Shown here piece by piece: positions 15,101 to 27,710 of a stretch of DNA of 27,710 bases. Both the position numbers and the translations under genes were made by a program. This DNA comes from a virus. The DNA is taken from positions 1 to 27,710 of the IMG/VR virus record IMGVR_UViG_3300032288_003711. The stretch is one strand, 5' to 3'. Every line of letters begins with the position of its first letter. The first letter of the stretch is position 1. The notes beneath the pieces are model-generated. The model worked only from the letters and a program-made list of their open reading frames with translations. It had not been told where the DNA came from and searched no databases.

Positions 15101-16444
15101 ATGAATATCTACCTAAGCGGGATCACAAGGGACGAGAACTACGAGGTCTTAGAGGGCATCAGCGCAGCGCCTCTGGTGATTGACTACTCCTACACCAAGA
15201 CGCGCGACCGCGCCCTCCTAGAGCGTCTGAGGGAGAGCCGCAGACTCATGGCGCACATAGACACCTTGAAGATGGAGGCGGCGTGTGAGCGCGCAGGCGC
15301 AGCTGCTCAAGCGTCAAAACTCAATCACATGATGGAGCAGTACGCTGAGTGGGCGCATCAAAATCTTGACCTACTTGACCTCGTGATCTGTCCACAACCG
15401 AAGGTCAACGGCTGTTATTGGGAGTTCTCAGATGCGGTTAAGGCGAAGGGCATCTACAGCGTCAAGACCGCCACGCGCGCAGAGGCGCTCTCAGCCCTTG
15501 AGGAGTATCTGCTGATAACCACTCTGGGCGAGATGCCCGCCACCGATATGCGCGCCATCAATACAGCCACAGGGCGCGCGTGCTTCCATACCCACGCCTC
15601 CATCACCAAAGATGAAGTGATGAGTGGCCTGTATGCTTCAGGCGCGACCTCTAGTTGGCTGAGTGGCGCTAAGTTCGGCAACACCTACGAGTATGTGGGC
15701 GCTCTCAAGATGACCACACACCACGGCTCTAAGGGCAGCGGCAAGGCTGTGCGCGATCACCTCAAGGGCAAGTGCGCGCGCCTCGGGATTGACCACTCTC
15801 TGCTCATGCAGGACGACAGGCTCACCGTCAACACATGGAACGCCCATCAGTGGATCCTGTTCATCAACGATGCCGCCCCCTCATCCGCGCTCACGGTACA
15901 GGCAGACACTTTTCAACAACTTTCAGAGGATGACCTCACCCTCGCTGTAAGTACCTCAAACGCCTTAACAACTCCGCAACAACAGCCCACAACCCTTGCA
16001 ACCCAAGAGGCGGGTGGAGCATATCTGAGGGTCTGCAACTCGTGCTTCTTGAGCGCCACCTGCCCCGCCTACAAGCCCGATGCGAACTGCTCAGTCTCTA
16101 CACGCCCGCGCGTAGATACCCCAGAGGACTTACAGCAACTCCTCAACCGAGTCATAGAGATACAGGGCGAGCGCGTCATGTTCTCCGCCTTCGCTGAGAA
16201 GAACCAGAACATGGGACTCAACCCCGATGTCTCTAGAGAGATACAGACCCTCACCAAAATCGTGAAAGAAGCGAAGGAAATCATGGCCCCCATCTCTGAG
16301 GAAATCACCATCAAGGCGCGCGGGCCAAGCGTGATGAATAGTCTGTTCGGCGGCTACGGCAGAGCAGGTGGAGGGGGCGGGTCTAAGCCCTCTCAGTCAG
16401 AAGCGATTATTGATGTCTCACCATTGGATGTTAAGAAAAAATGA
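15101..16444 (+). CDS. large two-part phage protein with C-terminal cysteine cluster
   Basis: 447 residues, GGAG six bases upstream. N-terminal ~120 residues (MNIYLSGITRDENYEVLEGI, PLVIDYSYTK, HQNLDLLDLVICPQ) remind me of alpha/beta barrel starts in phage TGT/DpdA-like proteins, but I see no catalytic residues and hold this lightly. A basic glycine-rich stretch (HHGSKGSGK) lies near 235. The C-terminal part has a Cys cluster (RVCNSCFLSATCPAY, then Cys after DAN), followed by a helical segment (VIEIQGERVMFSAF, SREIQTLTKIVKEAKEIM), a module I recall from other phages. A Gly-rich linker ends the protein. Function unknown. It overlaps nrdA through ATGA. Confidence 0.75.
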   Translation: MNIYLSGITRDENYEVLEGISAAPLVIDYSYTKTRDRALLERLRESRRLMAHIDTLKMEAACERAGAAAQASKLNHMMEQYAEWAHQNLDLLDLVICPQPKVNGCYWEFSDAVKAKGIYSVKTATRAEALSALEEYLLITTLGEMPATDMRAINTATGRACFHTHASITKDEVMSGLYASGATSSWLSGAKFGNTYEYVGALKMTTHHGSKGSGKAVRDHLKGKCARLGIDHSLLMQDDRLTVNTWNAHQWILFINDAAPSSALTVQADTFQQLSEDDLTLAVSTSNALTTPQQQPTTLATQEAGGAYLRVCNSCFLSATCPAYKPDANCSVSTRPRVDTPEDLQQLLNRVIEIQGERVMFSAFAEKNQNMGLNPDVSREIQTLTKIVKEAKEIMAPISEEITIKARGPSVMNSLFGGYGRAGGGGGSKPSQSEAIIDVSPLDVKKK

Positions 16445-19219: not shown

Positions 19220-20296
19220 ATGAAGTGTTCGCACTATGTGTACCGCCAAGTAAATAAGGCTACAGGCGAGTATTATATCGGGAAAGGGACTTACTCTGCG
19301 CGGGATCCAGATGGGAGCAAGTATAAGGGGTCTGGCATACTGCTTCTCCGCAAAATGAGCGCACACCCTTATGACTTTGAAAAGATTATATTAAAGGAGT
19401 TTGAGTCTGAGCAGGACGCATATGAATACGAGCGCGCTATGGTGGGTGAGATGTATATTGGCGGTAGAGATCACGATCCCCTGTGCTTAAACATGAATAG
19501 CGGGGGTATGGGCACATCTTCCGACTTCATGCGGAACTATTATCGCAACCATCGCCATAGGCAGGAGCGTTCTATTGAGTCAAAGAGAAGATGGGAGCGC
19601 GCAGAGTATAGGATCAAACTGAGGGCTTCTCAGGCCCTAGTAAGGGATCAGAGGATAAAAAGGTTAAAAGAAACAATGAGCAGACCTGATGTGCAGGCAA
19701 AGATTAAAGACGGTTATAAATGCCCTATTAGGAGGGCCAAGTTGCGCGAGAAGGCCAAGCCATCTACGCTAAATATAGAGCGTGATGGGCACACAATATC
19801 CATCCCATATGGCCACCTGCGCGACTACCTTGTTCTCGGCTGGGCGCTGTGTTCAAAAGGCGTGGTCAACATACACCGCTCCGACATAGGCGTTTATTCC
19901 TGTGGTCAACACGATGTCGTAAAGCATCTAATCGTGGAGCATGGCTTCGTATTCGGGACAAACTTTGCGCTCAATCGTGTGACATACGACACAATATCTA
20001 AACTGAGCGGAGTGAAAGAAGCAAAGGCTAAGGGGCAGATGGATAAATGGTCGTGCAAGCCCGTGGTTTTAGTTGACCCAGAAGGGCAAGAGGAGGCTGT
20101 ACCTCGCCACGAGTATTTAGACCGACTAGAGAACGGATACATATTTAAGAGCGCAAGCGTTCAAGTTAGAAACCATAAACTGAAGCAGACTGCACTTGTA
20201 AGCAGAGCGAGGGCGAAGGCATTACTAGTCCTGAGAGGGGATTGGGAGTTGGGGAGCAAAAGGGGCTACCGTGCGGTGAGCGCCAAATCGGTTTGA
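19220..20296 (+). CDS. GIY-YIG homing endonuclease (Seg-like)
   Basis: 358 residues, AAAGGGG upstream of ATG 19220. The N-terminal ~95 residues are a GIY-YIG nuclease: YVYR at 6-9, YYIGKGT at 18-24, and KYKGSG and EYERAMVGE downstream for the Arg/Glu side of the site. A basic helical stretch follows (RHRQERSIESKRRWERAEYR, REKAKPST), then a C-terminal half that probably binds DNA. Codon use is looser and A+T-richer than its neighbours, a sign of recent arrival. It lies between nrdB and a leftover nrdB 3' end, so its target is probably the nrdB end. An intron is not needed, because nrdB reads through to its own stop. Confidence 0.9.
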   Translation: MKCSHYVYRQVNKATGEYYIGKGTYSARDPDGSKYKGSGILLLRKMSAHPYDFEKIILKEFESEQDAYEYERAMVGEMYIGGRDHDPLCLNMNSGGMGTSSDFMRNYYRNHRHRQERSIESKRRWERAEYRIKLRASQALVRDQRIKRLKETMSRPDVQAKIKDGYKCPIRRAKLREKAKPSTLNIERDGHTISIPYGHLRDYLVLGWALCSKGVVNIHRSDIGVYSCGQHDVVKHLIVEHGFVFGTNFALNRVTYDTISKLSGVKEAKAKGQMDKWSCKPVVLVDPEGQEEAVPRHEYLDRLENGYIFKSASVQVRNHKLKQTALVSRARAKALLVLRGDWELGSKRGYRAVSAKSV

Positions 20297-20469: not shown

Positions 20470-20726
20470 CTAAGAAGGCGAGACTCCGTACAGCGCCCAA
20501 TCGTATCCGCACTAATAAATGCTTTAAGCGTGTATTTAGGCGTGGCCCTATCGCTGACTGCGACAGCGCGATTGTGTCCATAACACCTGACGGAGTCTAT
20601 CTGTATGAGTATTGGGGGCTCGTAGAGTGCTTTCAAAACACTATGGGGTCTGAGAACGCACAGGAGTGGGTTGACTTCAATATCGTCAGACTCAAAAACG
20701 CTGCTATCGTGTACAAGTCGCTTTAA
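20466..20726 (+). CDS. small basic protein of unknown function
   Basis: 86 residues from GTG 20466, overlapping the stop of the nrdB remnant; AGGAG at 20451-20455. Residues 1-30 are strongly basic (TKKARLRTAPNRIRTNKCFK); the rest alternates strands and helices (AIVSITPDGVYLYEYWGLVE). Codon use is relaxed, like the endonuclease region. No known family. Its original coupling to nrdB suggests it belonged to the RNR operon before the endonuclease arrived. Confidence 0.65.
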   Translation: MTKKARLRTAPNRIRTNKCFKRVFRRGPIADCDSAIVSITPDGVYLYEYWGLVECFQNTMGSENAQEWVDFNIVRLKNAAIVYKSL

Positions 20727-20748
20727 GCATAAAGAGAAGGATAAGACA

Positions 20749-21564
20749 TTGAACAAGACACAGATCGCTCAGGGACTCCAGCGCCGCCTCAAGTGCGCTG
20801 TAAAGCCTATCAACGCTCTCAAGGAGCGCATCGCACAGGCAGACACCGTTCCTCCCTTTATGCCCACCTCTGACGGCGGGCGAGTGGTACTCGTCAGCAC
20901 ATGGGGCGATGACCTTGATGTGGTCAATGTGGCTAAAGTCTCCTTTGACAAGCACGACCCCTCAGTCATCGCGCATCTAGGCGAGGGCCTCACCGACCGC
21001 CAACTCTCTCTGCTCAACTTCCTCTGGAAGAACAAGCACACCTCACCCTTCCGCCATCAGTACCTCAAGTTTCAGATCACCGCCCCTATATTCGTGATGA
21101 GGCAGTGGATGAAGCACACCGTGGGGTGCGCTTGGAACGAAGCCTCTGGGCGCTACATCAAGTTCTCAGACGACTTCTACGCCCCCAAAGAGTTCCGCGC
21201 CTCAGTCAAAGACACCAAGCAAGGGAGCGGTGGCCCTATTGAGAGCGCAGAGATACAGGAGAGTGCCCTGACCGCCTATAACGACTCCCTGAGCGCCTCC
21301 TACCTCACCTATCAATATCTGCTCTCCATCGGTGTCTGTCACGAGCAGGCGCGCACCGTCATGCCACTCGCCACCATGACGCGCTGTGTGTGGACTTGTA
21401 GCCTGCAAGCCTTCCTCAACTTCTTGGAACTGAGGCTCTCCCCCCACGCGCAGTTGGAGATCCAAGAGTACGCTCAAGCCTGTCTCTCTCTCGTGATAGA
21501 TCAAGGCGACTTCATAGAGACTCTGCGCGCTGCGCTCGCCCTCTCAGACTCCCCTGAAGAGTAG
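20749..21564 (+). CDS. thyX: flavin-dependent thymidylate synthase
   Basis: 271 residues from TTG 20749, chosen because GAAGGA lies seven bases upstream; the in-phase frame extends upstream into the previous gene. ThyX features: TSPFRHQYLKFQITAPIFVMRQW, then the signature region KHTVGCAWNEASGRY, a variant of the usual RHRxxSxNExSxRY, and later QARTVMPLATMTRCVWTCSLQAFLNFLELR, where RxxxP and the Arg/Asn-type residues bind dUMP. ThyX makes dTMP from dUMP with FAD, NADPH and methylene-THF, and needs no dihydrofolate reductase. With RNR and thymidylate kinase it gives a route to dTDP. Confidence 0.93.
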   Translation: MNKTQIAQGLQRRLKCAVKPINALKERIAQADTVPPFMPTSDGGRVVLVSTWGDDLDVVNVAKVSFDKHDPSVIAHLGEGLTDRQLSLLNFLWKNKHTSPFRHQYLKFQITAPIFVMRQWMKHTVGCAWNEASGRYIKFSDDFYAPKEFRASVKDTKQGSGGPIESAEIQESALTAYNDSLSASYLTYQYLLSIGVCHEQARTVMPLATMTRCVWTCSLQAFLNFLELRLSPHAQLEIQEYAQACLSLVIDQGDFIETLRAALALSDSPEE

Positions 21565-21627: not shown

Positions 21628-22500
21628 ATGGATCAAATCAAAGAGGTCATTGTCTCCTCTGCGCTTATTGACGAACTCTACAAGCGCGGCTCAGTCTCCA
21701 CCCCTAGCCATGTTCAATGTATGGGCTGGTTCCTGATCCTCAAGTCGGACTGTGGCAAGAGCGCCCTCGCTGCCTATCAAGGCGATACCCTCGTCTTAGT
21801 GAGTGGCAAGGCTCTCAAGACACAGAACATCTCGCCCAAAGACGCAGGGCAGACCTGCCTCATGTGGGCGTTGGATGAGTACGACATGGTGATCGCTGTG
21901 GGCGGTGCAGGCACAGGTAAGACCACCGTGGCTCTAGCGTGGGCCGTCAACCAGATGATGAAGCACAACAAGCGCATCATCCTCTGTAAGCCCACTCACT
22001 TTGTGGGCGGTAAGAGCAACGCTATCGCCGCCATACCTGGCACGCACAGGGAGAAGCTAGAAGGCTACATTGACAGTTATCTAGGCGCTCTCCGCAAGAT
22101 CATGGGCGACAACTACCTTGAGTACCTCCGCACTCTTGAGGAGTCGGGTAAGGTGATATTTCAGCCTCTTGAACTCCTGCGCGGGCTAGACTTTGAGAAC
22201 TCGGTGGTGATTATTGATGAGGCTCAGAACACCACCCCACACGACCTGATGAGCGCCATCTCGCGCGTAGGGCAGGCTTCCACCTGCATCGTCTTGGGCG
22301 ACCCCCGACAGGTGGATATTGACCTGCACCCCTCAGAGACAGGGCTGGCTGTGCTTCTCAACTCTGAGGCGATGAAGTACACCGAGATCGCCTGCGCGGT
22401 GCGCCTCAACGGACAGTACAGAGGGCCTCTCGCCACCCTCGCAGCTGAGGTCTTGGAGGAGTTCTACGCTGAGGAGGAGTTAGAGGAGGAGGAGCCTTAA
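21628..22500 (+). CDS. phoH: PhoH-like P-loop ATPase
   Basis: 290 residues, GGAGG upstream. GGAGTGKT (92-99) is Walker A, VVIIDEAQNTTPHDL (about 193-207) is Walker B with the PhoH-typical NTTP, and IVLGDPRQVDID is the downstream motif. ELLRGLDFEN replaces the usual RGRTL segment. The first ~60 residues are outside the ATPase. Phage PhoH is common but its role is unclear; an RNA helicase-like or stress-linked NTPase role has been proposed. The acidic tail (EEFYAEEELEEEEP) is unusual. The stop overlaps tail-to-tail with the reverse-strand gene through the palindrome TTAA. Confidence 0.92.
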   Translation: MDQIKEVIVSSALIDELYKRGSVSTPSHVQCMGWFLILKSDCGKSALAAYQGDTLVLVSGKALKTQNISPKDAGQTCLMWALDEYDMVIAVGGAGTGKTTVALAWAVNQMMKHNKRIILCKPTHFVGGKSNAIAAIPGTHREKLEGYIDSYLGALRKIMGDNYLEYLRTLEESGKVIFQPLELLRGLDFENSVVIIDEAQNTTPHDLMSAISRVGQASTCIVLGDPRQVDIDLHPSETGLAVLLNSEAMKYTEIACAVRLNGQYRGPLATLAAEVLEEFYAEEELEEEEP

Positions 22501-24389
22501 CCTTTCTGTGGCTTAGGTGCGGGCCAATAATCAAGATCGCCTTGATGGGCCACTTGGTCGCGCAGTTTATAGTTGGTGGATCCACCCTCTCGTACTTGTT
22601 TTACGCCACCGTCAGCCTCACAGGCTCTTGGGGTTTTCCACATCAACGCTTCGCTGTCCTCACCGCTCTTATCTGCGGTGTTCTTCTTGGGTAGGTAAGG
22701 GGGCGCATCAATAGGCTCAGGCCAATAGTCAAGACTGCCTTGATGTGCCACCTGATCACGCAACTTCAACTGCGCGGTGTCGTCTTTACGCACCTGCTTA
22801 ATACCGCCCTCAGCCTCCATTGTAGATGGAGTTTTCCACATAAGCGCGTGACTATCTCCTGTCACCGCTTCTAAGCGTAAAGGCATAGTGATGACGCTAC
22901 AAGAGGGCAAAGTCCACCCCACAGGCAAGCCCATCAATACCTCCACCCAACGAGGGTTCACAAAGCCTGTGTAGCCTGTCTCATGGTGAACCTGTCGGGG
23001 CATCGTATCATCTCTTGTCTTACCATCTTTACGGTCAGGATGAGGGCCGTGCATGGAAGCCTCCATGTAATCTCTAACGATTGGAGTCGTCCAAGCGACT
23101 CCACAGGACTCTGAAGGCTCGCTCTGCGGTGGCTGGGACAACTCCGTTTCCAAGAAGGCGCAACTCGTCTGCACGAGAGTCAAGGGAACTGCACAAGAGG
23201 GCATAGTCCACCCCACAGGCAGACCCATCAGTACCTCCACCCAACGGGGATTGAGTACCCGCTTCTCCTCTTTCATCACTTCCTGTGTCTGTGGATCCGC
23301 TGTCTCTTGGAGTGACTCGTGGGGGTTCCCAAGAGAACTGAGCGACTCCTCTACCTGCGGGCCAGAGTTCGCGCCGATACACAACAAGGGGTCTGCTATC
23401 TTCTCTGCATATTCCGCTAATATCGCAGCATCGCATAAGTTCATGCTGTGGCAAGTTGACCCCTCTTTGGCTCCTGCTCTCCGACCTGTCGGTGTCAATG
23501 TCATCTGAGGGTGAGCGTTCTCCTGTGTCGTAGGCGTGGGCCACAACTTGTCCATCTGCACTGCCACCGTCAGCGATGGCCCTCTGTTCTTGGCTGAGGG
23601 CTTCTGTGCGCGCGCAAAGTGCTGCTCCACTGTCTCGTGGATCTCTGAAGCCTTCGGCGTAGGCCACGGCTGTTCTATAACTTGAAGCCATAACGACTTC
23701 TGTGAACCGCCCTGCTCTATCTTTAGAGCCTTCTCCACATCTTTGTAGCGCATACGGTTCACTTCGCCTAATGTCGGCGTGCGCCAATAGTTCTCCAACT
23801 CTTGAGCGCCCTGCATCTGAGAGGTCTGCTCTGACACCAAGAATAAAGATGCGCTTCCGTTGGTGGGGCGCTCCGACTTCAGACGCTGAGAATACTCCTG
23901 CCGTTGTGCGATAACCCAGCCGCTCCAACTCTCTAAAGACATGGAGCAGAACGGGAGTTCCCTGTGGGTCTGACCAATCGTCTCCCTTGAGGTTGGAGGA
24001 GAGTATTCCTTCAACATTTTCAAAGAAAACAATGGGAGGTCGCTCCAACTCTCTGATGCCTCTGACAATGTGGGGCCACAGGTGTCGCTCGTCCTCGTCT
24101 CCTGCTTTTCTTCCTGCGGCACTAAATGGCTGACAAGGGAAGCCTCCAGAGATGATGTCCACTTTCCCACGAAACTCTGCCCACGGGAAGGTTTTAAGAT
24201 CCGTCCAGATAGGCGCGTTATCCAACCACCCCGCTTCAATCTTGCTGACCAGGTTCGTGCAGGCGAAGTCCCCGATTTCGCTATAAGCGACTGTGCGAAC
24301 ATCTCTGATAGCTCTTTTGAGTCCGAGGTCAATCCCTCCGTATCCACTGCAAAGGCTGATGTGTGTAAGGTCTTTGGTATGATCCACAT
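22497..24389 (-). CDS. overprinted WxTP-repeat protein, second frame of the methyltransferase locus
   Basis: 630 residues from ATG 24389. It covers the whole methyltransferase gene in another frame and runs 577 bases further, to a TAA shared with the phoH stop. It has six copies of W-x-T-P-x(3)-[E/D] (residues 202, 242, 283, 433, 518, 584), two of NPRWVEVLMGLPVGWT (380, 478) and two of LRDQVAHQG-x-LDYWP (543, 609). Between the two NPRWVE copies (20 codons) six bases differ: five are silent here, whereas all five affected codons change the residue in the methyltransferase frame. Between the two WKTP units about 15 codons differ silently. This is the mark of selected protein. I recall database proteins of this type near phage methyltransferases; function unknown. 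The N-terminal third is less certain. Confidence 0.65.
   Translation of the reverse strand: MWIIPKTLHTSAFAVDTEGLTSDSKELSEMFAQSLIAKSGTSPARTWSARLKRGGWITRLSGRILKPSRGQSFVGKWTSSLEASLVSHLVPQEEKQETRTSDTCGPTLSEASESWSDLPLFSLKMLKEYSPPTSRETIGQTHRELPFCSMSLESWSGWVIAQRQEYSQRLKSERPTNGSASLFLVSEQTSQMQGAQELENYWRTPTLGEVNRMRYKDVEKALKIEQGGSQKSLWLQVIEQPWPTPKASEIHETVEQHFARAQKPSAKNRGPSLTVAVQMDKLWPTPTTQENAHPQMTLTPTGRRAGAKEGSTCHSMNLCDAAILAEYAEKIADPLLCIGANSGPQVEESLSSLGNPHESLQETADPQTQEVMKEEKRVLNPRWVEVLMGLPVGWTMPSCAVPLTLVQTSCAFLETELSQPPQSEPSESCGVAWTTPIVRDYMEASMHGPHPDRKDGKTRDDTMPRQVHHETGYTGFVNPRWVEVLMGLPVGWTLPSCSVITMPLRLEAVTGDSHALMWKTPSTMEAEGGIKQVRKDDTAQLKLRDQVAHQGSLDYWPEPIDAPPYLPKKNTADKSGEDSEALMWKTPRACEADGGVKQVREGGSTNYKLRDQVAHQGDLDYWPAPKPQKG
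23074..24387 (-). CDS. DNA (cytosine-5) methyltransferase
   Basis: 437 residues from GTG 24387; GGGAG lies six bases upstream. Motif I is SLCSGYGGIDLGL (11-23), motif IV is GGFPCQPFSAAGRKAG with catalytic Cys85, motif VI is FENVEG (122-127), motif VIII is QRKRIFILG (176-184), and motif IX/X is LLGNGVVPATAERAF near the end. The target-recognition region (190-400) has [L/V]A-x-A-[D/E] repeats and WEPPR. The enzyme methylates C5 of cytosine, probably for restriction escape. GTG 24387 overlaps the ATG of the other frame (ATGTG), so one ribosome site could serve both. Confidence 0.93.
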   Translation of the reverse strand: MDHTKDLTHISLCSGYGGIDLGLKRAIRDVRTVAYSEIGDFACTNLVSKIEAGWLDNAPIWTDLKTFPWAEFRGKVDIISGGFPCQPFSAAGRKAGDEDERHLWPHIVRGIRELERPPIVFFENVEGILSSNLKGDDWSDPQGTPVLLHVFRELERLGYRTTAGVFSASEVGAPHQRKRIFILGVRADLSDAGRSRVGELLAHADIRRSEPYALQRCGEGSKDRAGRFTEVVMASSYRTAVAYAEGFRDPRDSGAALCARTEALSQEQRAIADGGSADGQVVAHAYDTGERSPSDDIDTDRSESRSQRGVNLPQHELMRCCDISGICREDSRPLVVYRRELWPAGRGVAQFSWEPPRVTPRDSGSTDTGSDERGEAGTQSPLGGGTDGSACGVDYALLCSSLDSRADELRLLGNGVVPATAERAFRVLWSRLDDSNR

Positions 24390-26527: not shown

Positions 26528-26573
26528 TGTCTTACACTTCTTTGAGGCGGTGGTCAAGGACTTTTCAACAACT
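26528..26573 (-). repeat. 46-bp leader repeat, copy A
   Basis: Identical over 46 bases to 27325-27370. On the minus strand it starts at the stop codon of the Mom-like gene and lies upstream of the nuclease gene (start 26483). It contains AGTTGTTGAAAAGT and CCTTGACC, followed 17 bases later by TAAGAC, a weak -35/-10 pair. Two copies before two adjacent minus-strand genes suggest a shared promoter or operator. Confidence 0.85.
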
Positions 26574-27297
26574 ATTTTTGAGGCTTCGGGTACTGCTGAG
26601 GGGTCAACTTGCACATCTTCATGTGGAGCCGCTTCTGACGGTTAGAGCCATGTATCATCTTGATATATCTATACTTACAGCCACTAGCTGGGACGACCGT
26701 CCACCCTCTCTCGCGCGCATCTCCCGCTGAGATGTTCACGCCACACTGACGAGAGTGCCTGAGCCTGCCCGCCTCGTCTATGTAGGTGTTCGCGTGGTTT
26801 CGGCTTTCGCCCGTGTACACCCAACTCATCGCCTGATACACGCCGCCGTGGTGTCCCTGCGTGGAGTCAGCAAAGGAGATGAGCGCCCAGATAGGGGTCA
26901 GCCCTCTAGCCTCTCTATCTGCGCGATACGCCTCTATCACGGCAGGTACGATCATGGACGCTGACATCTTGACCCCCTCTTTGATGGAGAGACGGCCCAA
27001 CTCAGCCACATGGCTCTTGAACTCCTCACCGAACACGCTTGCTCTGACATTTTCGCTACAAGGCGTAGTGAAGGAGACGCAGCAGAGCATATCCACAGAG
27101 TGGGCGAGGAATACCCCAAAACTCGTGGCAGAGTTCGCAACGCCCCCAGCGTAGTGGTAGCGCCTGTAAAAGTCGCAAGCGTCGTCTAGGCTCACACGCC
27201 TAATCTCAACATCCTCTAGCCTGTACTCGGTCTGAGCCTCTCGGTCATCGCTGTATTGTGAGAAAAGGTCTAGTTGATCCATCAACTTCATCTCCAT
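26572..27297 (-). CDS. Mom-like GNAT-fold DNA modification protein
   Basis: 241 residues from ATG 27297. Conserved features of the phage Mu Mom type: RRYHYAGGVANSATSFGVFL, CCVSFTTPCSEN, ELGRLSIKEG, ALISFADSTQGHHGGVYQAM (Mom: ISYAD-x-x-QGH) and YTGESRNHANTYID with a C-terminal KYRYIKMIHG. Mom changes adenine in DNA to an acetamido-type base and protects phage DNA from restriction. The fold is acetyltransferase-like; a GNAT-type cofactor or metal chemistry is debated. The N-terminus has QLDLF (8-12), a perfect clamp-binding peptide, in MDQLDLFSQY. In the same direction as a DNA methyltransferase. Confidence 0.85.
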   Translation of the reverse strand: MEMKLMDQLDLFSQYSDDREAQTEYRLEDVEIRRVSLDDACDFYRRYHYAGGVANSATSFGVFLAHSVDMLCCVSFTTPCSENVRASVFGEEFKSHVAELGRLSIKEGVKMSASMIVPAVIEAYRADREARGLTPIWALISFADSTQGHHGGVYQAMSWVYTGESRNHANTYIDEAGRLRHSRQCGVNISAGDARERGWTVVPASGCKYRYIKMIHGSNRQKRLHMKMCKLTPQQYPKPQK

Positions 27298-27412: not shown

Positions 27413-27710
27413 TCAGAACAGCGAGAGTTGTTCAGGGTCGCCGTCATCTGACCCCGCCTTAGTCGCCTTCACCGCAGTCTGCTCGGGCTGAGAGGGCTGA
27501 GAGGGCTGAGGTGTCCAATGCTTCACCCGCTCCTGAGCGATTGTGATGTATTCACCCTCACGCTCAATCCCTACGAAGCGCGCGCCTTCAATAGCAGCTG
27601 CACACCCTGTCGTGCCTGACCCCATAAACGGATCAAGCACGATAGCGCCCTTCGGTGTCACCAACCTCACCAGATAGCACATCAAGTCAAGAGGCTTGAC
27701 GGTTGGGTGC
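27413..27710 (-). CDS. beta-class DNA methyltransferase, N-terminus outside the window
   Basis: The last 98 residues only. HPTVKPLDLMCYLVRLVTPK (motif X region) is followed by LDPFMGSGTTGCAA (motif I) and GIEREGEYITIAQERV (motif II/III), the order of beta-class adenine-N6 or cytosine-N4 methyltransferases such as CcrM. Motif IV (D/NPPY) and the target domain are beyond the edge. The linker PQPSQPSQPEQ is flexible. The C-terminus ends EQLSLF, a textbook beta-clamp-binding peptide (QLSLF). It may methylate at the fork with the phage clamp. 115 bases separate it from the Mom-like gene. Confidence 0.9.
   Translation of the reverse strand, partial: HPTVKPLDLMCYLVRLVTPKGAIVLDPFMGSGTTGCAAAIEGARFVGIEREGEYITIAQERVKHWTPQPSQPSQPEQTAVKATKAGSDDGDPEQLSLF

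Follow-up and report, generated by a model that had tools for sequence, protein, structure and literature searches.

A phage C5-cytosine DNA methyltransferase apparently written as two chains in two overlapping reading frames

What does a phage encode when a long second reading frame lies open across the whole of a methyltransferase gene? The question is raised by the virus record IMGVR_UViG_3300032288_003711 (IMG/VR), of which positions 1 to 27,710, a stretch of 27,710 nucleotides referred to here as the window, contain on the minus strand a C5-cytosine DNA methyltransferase gene, open reading frame (ORF) A, and a longer ORF, B, in the +1 frame of A. A preliminary description of this DNA had proposed that two proteins are made, a methyltransferase with all its motifs in one frame and a WxTP-repeat protein that is real at least from its middle to its end. 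Both ORFs were found as described, with a common ATGTG start and one ribosome site (GGGAG) at the positions collected in Table 1; B runs past the stop of A by 577 bases, and six WxTPx3[E/D] units, two NPRWVEVLMGLPVGWT copies and two LRDQVAHQG copies are all located in B. Our analysis points to a different relation between the two ORFs: the locus very likely encodes one C5-cytosine DNA methyltransferase as two polypeptides, alpha from A and beta from B, which are read from the same DNA in two frames.

The reality of B was examined in viral relatives, which were sought through A because B's own peptides gave no close relatives in viral contigs. Scanning the contigs with A yielded 65 loci, and 56 distinct loci entered the stop analysis, in which expected stop numbers were obtained by shuffling the synonymous codons of A. 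The B frame is stop-free across A in 52 of these 56 loci, where 0 stops stand against 258 expected (0 against 119 in the catalytic zone and 0 against 118 in the rest of A), whereas the third frame has 936 stops against 956 expected over the 56 loci. All 51 of 51 loci compared for their starts retain both start codons, as an overlapping NTGTG in 41, as two ATG codons five bases apart in five and eight bases apart in another five. Stops scattered through B beside an intact A, itself devoid of motif IX, are seen in none of the 52 loci. The second protein is therefore very probably real, as far as sequence comparison can tell, and its restriction to the middle and end does not hold, as the retained starts, the stop-free catalytic zone and a selection value (wB) of 0.66 there support the whole length. 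One relative, L055, was set aside, for its motifs IX and X lie one frame on compared with the 97% similar L054, which seems to reflect either an error in sequencing or a gene that broke recently.

The relation of B to the methyltransferase is indicated by the distribution of the motifs. A matches PF00145 (E 1.5e-34) over residues 8-190 only, that is, motifs I-VIII, and also matches phrog_363 and phrog_116, models that reach motif X. The catalytic motifs I, IV (PCQ), VI (ENV), and VIII (QRxR) are all located in A, and motif X (GN-V-P) is found there as RLLGNGVVP beyond the end of the PF00145 match. Motif IX is missing from A, contrary to the claim that one frame holds every motif, and by comparison with other enzymes we identify it in the NPRWVEVLMGLPVGWT / LNPRWVEVLMGLPVGWT segment of B. 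The ordinary single-chain enzyme of phage Javan308 has LTPRECWRLQGFPDWAF as its motif IX. Propionibacterium phage PFR1 and the viral loci L056, L082, L091, and L094 have the same kind of motif IX as B, LSPAFVEWLMGLPAGW, and in these it shares one frame with motif X and the catalytic part. Where the IX pattern is detected in the viral loci, it lies in the B frame and never in A of the same locus. B has no match in Pfam or NCBIfam, and residues 76-395 match phrog_1008 (E 1.3e-19), the end of which matches motif X of A; we take from these matches that phrog_1008 is a family in which a single ORF covers B and motif X. Although its name, 'DNA methyltransferase', suggests a whole enzyme, in these loci it denotes the chain without catalytic motifs. 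W155 and R169 of B are invariant among 40 B proteins. When A, the modules and motif IX of B, and motif X of A were artificially joined, the PF00145 match covered positions 2-319 of 324, compared to an end at 166 for A alone, and the score rose from 120.3 to 131.5 bits; joins with IX scrambled (123.7 bits) or with A's own sequence at IX (122.4 bits) lost the extension. Searches of PDB sequences with A, the join or single-chain relatives gave matches confined to the catalytic part.

As the gain of the join is modest, the case for a motif IX in B was rested on relatives in which the same parts are rearranged. A stops right after motif VIII in L042, L043, L046, and L047, and there X is instead located in B, after IX. 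In L037 and L053, A is interrupted by many stops across the module zone, B is intact, and X lies in a separate A-frame piece. A second ORF carries modules, IX, and X in L092, L095, L100, and L111; the modules are in the +1 frame with IX and X in the catalytic frame in L056, L082, L083, L103, and L105; and in L094 and L091 a single frame holds the catalytic part, these modules, and IX. The parts change frame, yet all are kept, as would be predicted for one enzyme written in two frames. Judged from these arrangements, the two ORFs behave as one enzyme, which is at odds with two unrelated proteins, since B carries the motif IX that A is without. As a separate observation, L044:2996-5278 holds a NUMOD4/HNH homing endonuclease inserted in the beta frame between WPTP modules, with the alpha frame open as well; B around the insertion is otherwise ordinary.

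Selection along the overlap was estimated from independent locus pairs by an OLGenie-like count, in which changes were classed by their effect in both frames, giving wA and wB for frames A and B. The catalytic zone shows wA 0.29 (0.23-0.34) and wB 0.66 (0.53-0.80), the module zone between motifs VIII and IX wA 1.02 (0.83-1.2) and wB 0.48 (0.29-0.74), the motif IX zone wA 3.8 and wB 0.10 (0.04-0.18), and the zone after IX wA 0.10 and wB 0.30-0.68. Frame C was tried as a control and rejected, as its values were above 1 because its third position is the second position of A; the control used instead was methyltransferase DNA out of reach of beta, taken from before the last +1 stop, where the pseudo-wB is 1.08 (0.80-1.39). 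From this control value it could be deduced that B is constrained in the catalytic zone too, though weakly. Purifying selection is thus found in each frame after correction for the other, with a strength that varies by zone. The constraint alternates along the gene: A bears it in the catalytic part, only B does across the WxTP modules and at motif IX, and at motif X it returns to A. This pattern is not that of an intact gene simply overprinted by another, as A is nearly neutral between VIII and IX, where B is constrained. Within the module zone there is an A-frame island, WPxRPGxxQYxWEPPR, in 31 of 63 loci, and its divergence falls mostly at third positions of A.

Comparison of the NPRWVE copies within B shows six differences in 60 bases: five are silent in B and one changes Met to Leu, and all five touched A-frame codons alter the residue, as had been noted; these A-frame changes are uninformative as methyltransferase evidence, as the second copy lies beyond the A stop. 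For the WKTP units, in which about 15 silent changes had been claimed, 16 silent codon changes and 14 residue changes were counted across 44 codons. The tail encoded by B alone is also present in L001, where synonymous differences from the window are saturated and the protein is retained (pS 0.84, pN 0.45). The tails of L006 and L012 are identical in protein and terminate in an ATGA common with the next ORF, and in the window the extension ends by overlapping a convergent PhoH gene by 4 bases.

The same layout recurs in named phages under various annotations. Both ORFs are annotated as methyltransferases in phages K1ind2 and Jacopo, and only alpha in HB10c2, ABMM1, BS-TP4, ctgrD200, R9.1, and C75C1. 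Only beta is annotated, beside an unannotated catalytic alpha ORF, in Synechococcus phage Sc-Yong805-2 (L072:1210-2139) and Acidovorax phage Alfacinha3 (L073:961-2127); gp46 of the latter is a beta chain without catalytic motifs labelled 'cytosine-specific methyltransferase'. The beta of K1ind2, an E. coli phage, matches 220 phage records by itself, and the BASEL phages Bas71 and Bas73 also carry the beta sequence. A bacterial survey, using a beta alignment and one genome per bacterial or archaeal species, gave 191 confirmed stretches, of which 80 were kept. Alpha adjoins beta in 80 of these 80 contigs, which answers the earlier question of whether beta always accompanies a C5-methyltransferase for contigs found through beta; motif IX is in the +1 frame in 78/80, and the alpha ORF continues across IX in 72/80. 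Among the record titles are members of Pseudomonadota, Bacillota, Bacteroidota, Kiritimatiellota, Spirochaetota, Actinomycetota, Planctomycetota, Acidobacteriota, and Verrucomicrobiota. These comparisons indicate that phages and prophages across many bacterial phyla share this conserved arrangement, in most cases without annotation.

Several results weigh against a two-chain enzyme, or against parts of this reading. The interval of wB in the catalytic zone touches that of the control, which comprises 7 pairs; the join of the window locus gains about 8-9 bits over its controls, and an L042-type join shows no PF00145 gain; and the bacterial survey was selected on NPxWVExLMG, which is motif IX itself, and gives no share among all C5-methyltransferases. 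In structure prediction, the reading is supported by the AlphaFold model for single-chain L094, which matches M.HhaI over its whole length (Z 24.1, 249 residues, root-mean-square deviation 3.5 Å), with its IX and X part at a predicted local distance difference test (pLDDT) score of about 90. The model of B alone is poor, with a mean pLDDT of 46 and its best segment in the helix/linker of residues 151-182 (block pLDDT up to 89), and the modules stay below 50 even in the L094 model, which leaves their assignment to target recognition without structural support.

Four other explanations can be considered for the same data. That B is a passive shadow ORF, open merely through the composition of the methyltransferase gene, would fit the chance +1 openness of some high-GC (guanine plus cytosine) relatives (L054, L055), but it is hardly credible in view of the 258 stops missing under synonymous shuffling, the lack of loci with scattered B stops, the conservation of both starts, the low wB at motif IX and in modules where A is neutral, the 577 bases of B beyond the A stop with their excess of silent change, and the protein-identical L006 and L012 tails with their ATGA junction. 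Programmed ribosomal frameshifting, which would join both frames into one chain, appears unlikely: single-chain relatives (L094, L091, PFR1) exist, and loci of the L042 type would yield a complete enzyme with one +1 shift close to the end of alpha, but the window type would need two shifts, into B for IX and back to A for X. Moreover, a frameshift product would need neither the separate start that B retains in 51 of 51 loci nor an open, weakly constrained upstream part, and the beta ORF of K1ind2 and Jacopo is annotated with its own internal start.

The want of a Pfam match for B, and its 150 N-terminal residues that resemble nothing known, could suit an independent protein of other function, for example, accessory or counter-defence, overprinted on a complete methyltransferase. 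We regard this as very improbable, because A is without motif IX while IX is the conserved core of B, IX, X, and the modules occur in either frame or fused to the catalytic part among relatives, and alpha adjoins beta in every bacterial contig kept. The idea that B is a mobile element that entered a methylase gene out of frame, as the ShiLan HNH element did in actinobacteriophages, has a precedent in the out-of-frame HNH insertions described in phage methylases (PMC11855218) and in the endonuclease in the B frame of L044. For the window this can be almost wholly discounted, as its B has no endonuclease domain among Pfam matches, spans the whole methyltransferase from the start, and is conserved rather than sporadic; in addition, the HNH of L044 sits within an otherwise ordinary B, and no close relative was seen with an intact IX in A and an empty site for B.

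The two-chain enzyme could operate as follows. Ribosomes at the single Shine-Dalgarno site would start at the ATG for beta or at the GTG two bases downstream for alpha, and the proportion of the two chains could depend on these shared starts. Motifs I-VIII, for S-adenosylmethionine binding and catalysis, and motif X would come from alpha, motif IX would come from beta, once translated, and both chains would assemble into one active methyltransferase, which probably protects the phage genome. The WxTP array of beta sits where C5-methyltransferases have their target-recognition region and may supply target recognition. For translation of alpha to arrive at motif X, no stop may fall in the middle of alpha, but the sequence there is mostly free and would be largely a by-product of the beta code; WPTPT in beta becomes LADTD in alpha when shifted, which, given the genetic code and a wA near 1, would explain the LADTD-like repeats. 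Tandem recognition domains give further specificities in multispecific phage methyltransferases, and a second specificity may likewise come from the additional motif IX and modules that B carries beyond the end of alpha. We lean slightly towards a broader proposal, in which a large class of phage and prophage C5-methyltransferases would be obligate two-chain enzymes, the catalytic gene of which would contain the recognition modules and motif IX in its +1 frame; the LADTD-rich middle and 'GRVADGIPxRVDR' would be beta shadows, overlapping starts would set the chain ratio, and specificity would evolve by gain and loss of WxTP modules, with two complete module/IX sets here.

Table 1. Positions of the two overlapping ORFs and their parts in the window
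Feature	Position	Strand	Remark
ORF A, alpha chain, C5-methyltransferase	23074..24387	-	437 aa, GTG start; motifs I-VIII and X, without IX
ORF B, predicted beta chain, +1 frame of A	22497..24389	-	630 aa, ATG start; in order: N-terminal part, helix, WxTP modules, motif IX, C-terminal extension
ATGTG, overlapping starts (ATG for B, GTG for A)	24385..24389	-	one GGGAG upstream
Catalytic zone of A	23842..24387	-	both frames constrained, A more
Motif I (A)	24322-24357	-	
Motif IV, PCQ (A)	24121-24147	-	
Motif VI, ENV (A)	24007-24027	-	
Motif VIII, QRxR (A)	23842-23865	-	
Helix/linker of B, residues 151-182	23844..23939	-	conserved, directly before modules
Zone with A near-neutral and B constrained	23368..23841	-	wA 1.02, wB 0.48
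WxTP modules (B frame)	23763-23786, 23643-23666, 23520-23543	-	
A-frame island WPAGRGVAQFSWEPPR	23317..23364	-	A-constrained, within B-dominated zone
Motif IX, LNPRWVEVLMGLPVGWT, B-encoded	23205..23255	-	wB 0.10, wA 3.8; in-frame counterpart in single-chain relatives; chimera test
Motif X, ELRLLGNGVVPATAERAF, A-encoded	23113..23166	-	wA 0.10 in zone after IX
WTTP module spanning A stop	23070-23093	-	
B-only extension	22497..23073	-	second motif IX and two WKTP modules with LRDQVAHQG
Second motif IX in B extension	22911-22961	-	
WKTP modules in B extension	22815-22838, 22617-22640	-	

Near the locus, a Mom-family DNA modification protein is encoded at 26572-27297 (-) and the end of an N6/N4 amino-methyltransferase ORF lies at 27413-27685 (-), and together with the C5-methyltransferase these genes apparently form a DNA-modification cluster. 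A weak relative of queuine tRNA-ribosyltransferase at 15101-16441 (+) (phrog_887, E 2.7e-12) is possibly another base-modification gene. A homing endonuclease-like ORF at 19220-20296 (+) (phrog_314, E 8.8e-18), with an N-terminus that we take to be GIY-YIG-like, is near a thymidylate synthase gene at 20671-21564.

The partition of a C5-methyltransferase between two chains is, as a kind, already known from M.EcoHK31I and M.AquI. In M.EcoHK31I (YGGCCR) the large subunit carries motifs I-VIII and X and is the place of the predicted recognition domain, with the small subunit carrying IX only, and M.AquI (CYCGRG) is split between VIII and IX into two chains, the second carrying IX and X (PMC3404938). 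By its published description, M.EcoHK31I has the same motif partition as the window, with I-VIII and X in alpha and IX in the second chain. Unlike that of M.EcoHK31I, the window beta has its start two bases ahead of that of alpha, covers alpha entirely, bears WxTP modules, and extends 577 bases past it with a second IX; the recognition zone, located in the large subunit of M.EcoHK31I, is in the window selected in beta. The two M.EcoHK31I reading frames reportedly overlap, as Lee et al. are said to have found in 1995. A plasmid search with A named no EcoHK31I among the matches listed. The second chain of the window, with X left in alpha, is not of the M.AquI type with IX and X, which is found in the four loci where A stops right after VIII; an M.AquI-like split between VIII and IX is seen in L042, L092, L100, and L111 and in gp79/gp78 of phage Twister. 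The ShiLan-type insertion (PMC11855218) resembles the window in having a second protein in the other frame of a phage methylase with both frames open, but it is a homing endonuclease at its insertion site, whereas B of the window would be the missing half of the enzyme. Our literature search found nothing on overlapping phage C5-methyltransferases beyond reviews of EcoHK31I and AquI and the ShiLan work, and no report of the phage and prophage spread, overlapping starts, a beta spanning the whole alpha gene, or a neutral middle, which is not proof of novelty. What appears new is the breadth, the overlapping starts, the methyltransferase middle as a mere shadow, and the second module/IX set past the methyltransferase stop.

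If the two-chain reading is true, many 'DNA methyltransferase' annotations denote half an enzyme, or its non-catalytic half as in Alfacinha3 gp46, and the annotated gene expressed alone would give an inactive protein. The overlap, which reaches up to about 1.3 kilobases and recurs in many phyla, offers a large natural data set on two long frames under different selection along a gene. An unexplained phage protein family would likewise be tied to a known function, and the modular evolution of target recognition would become directly testable.

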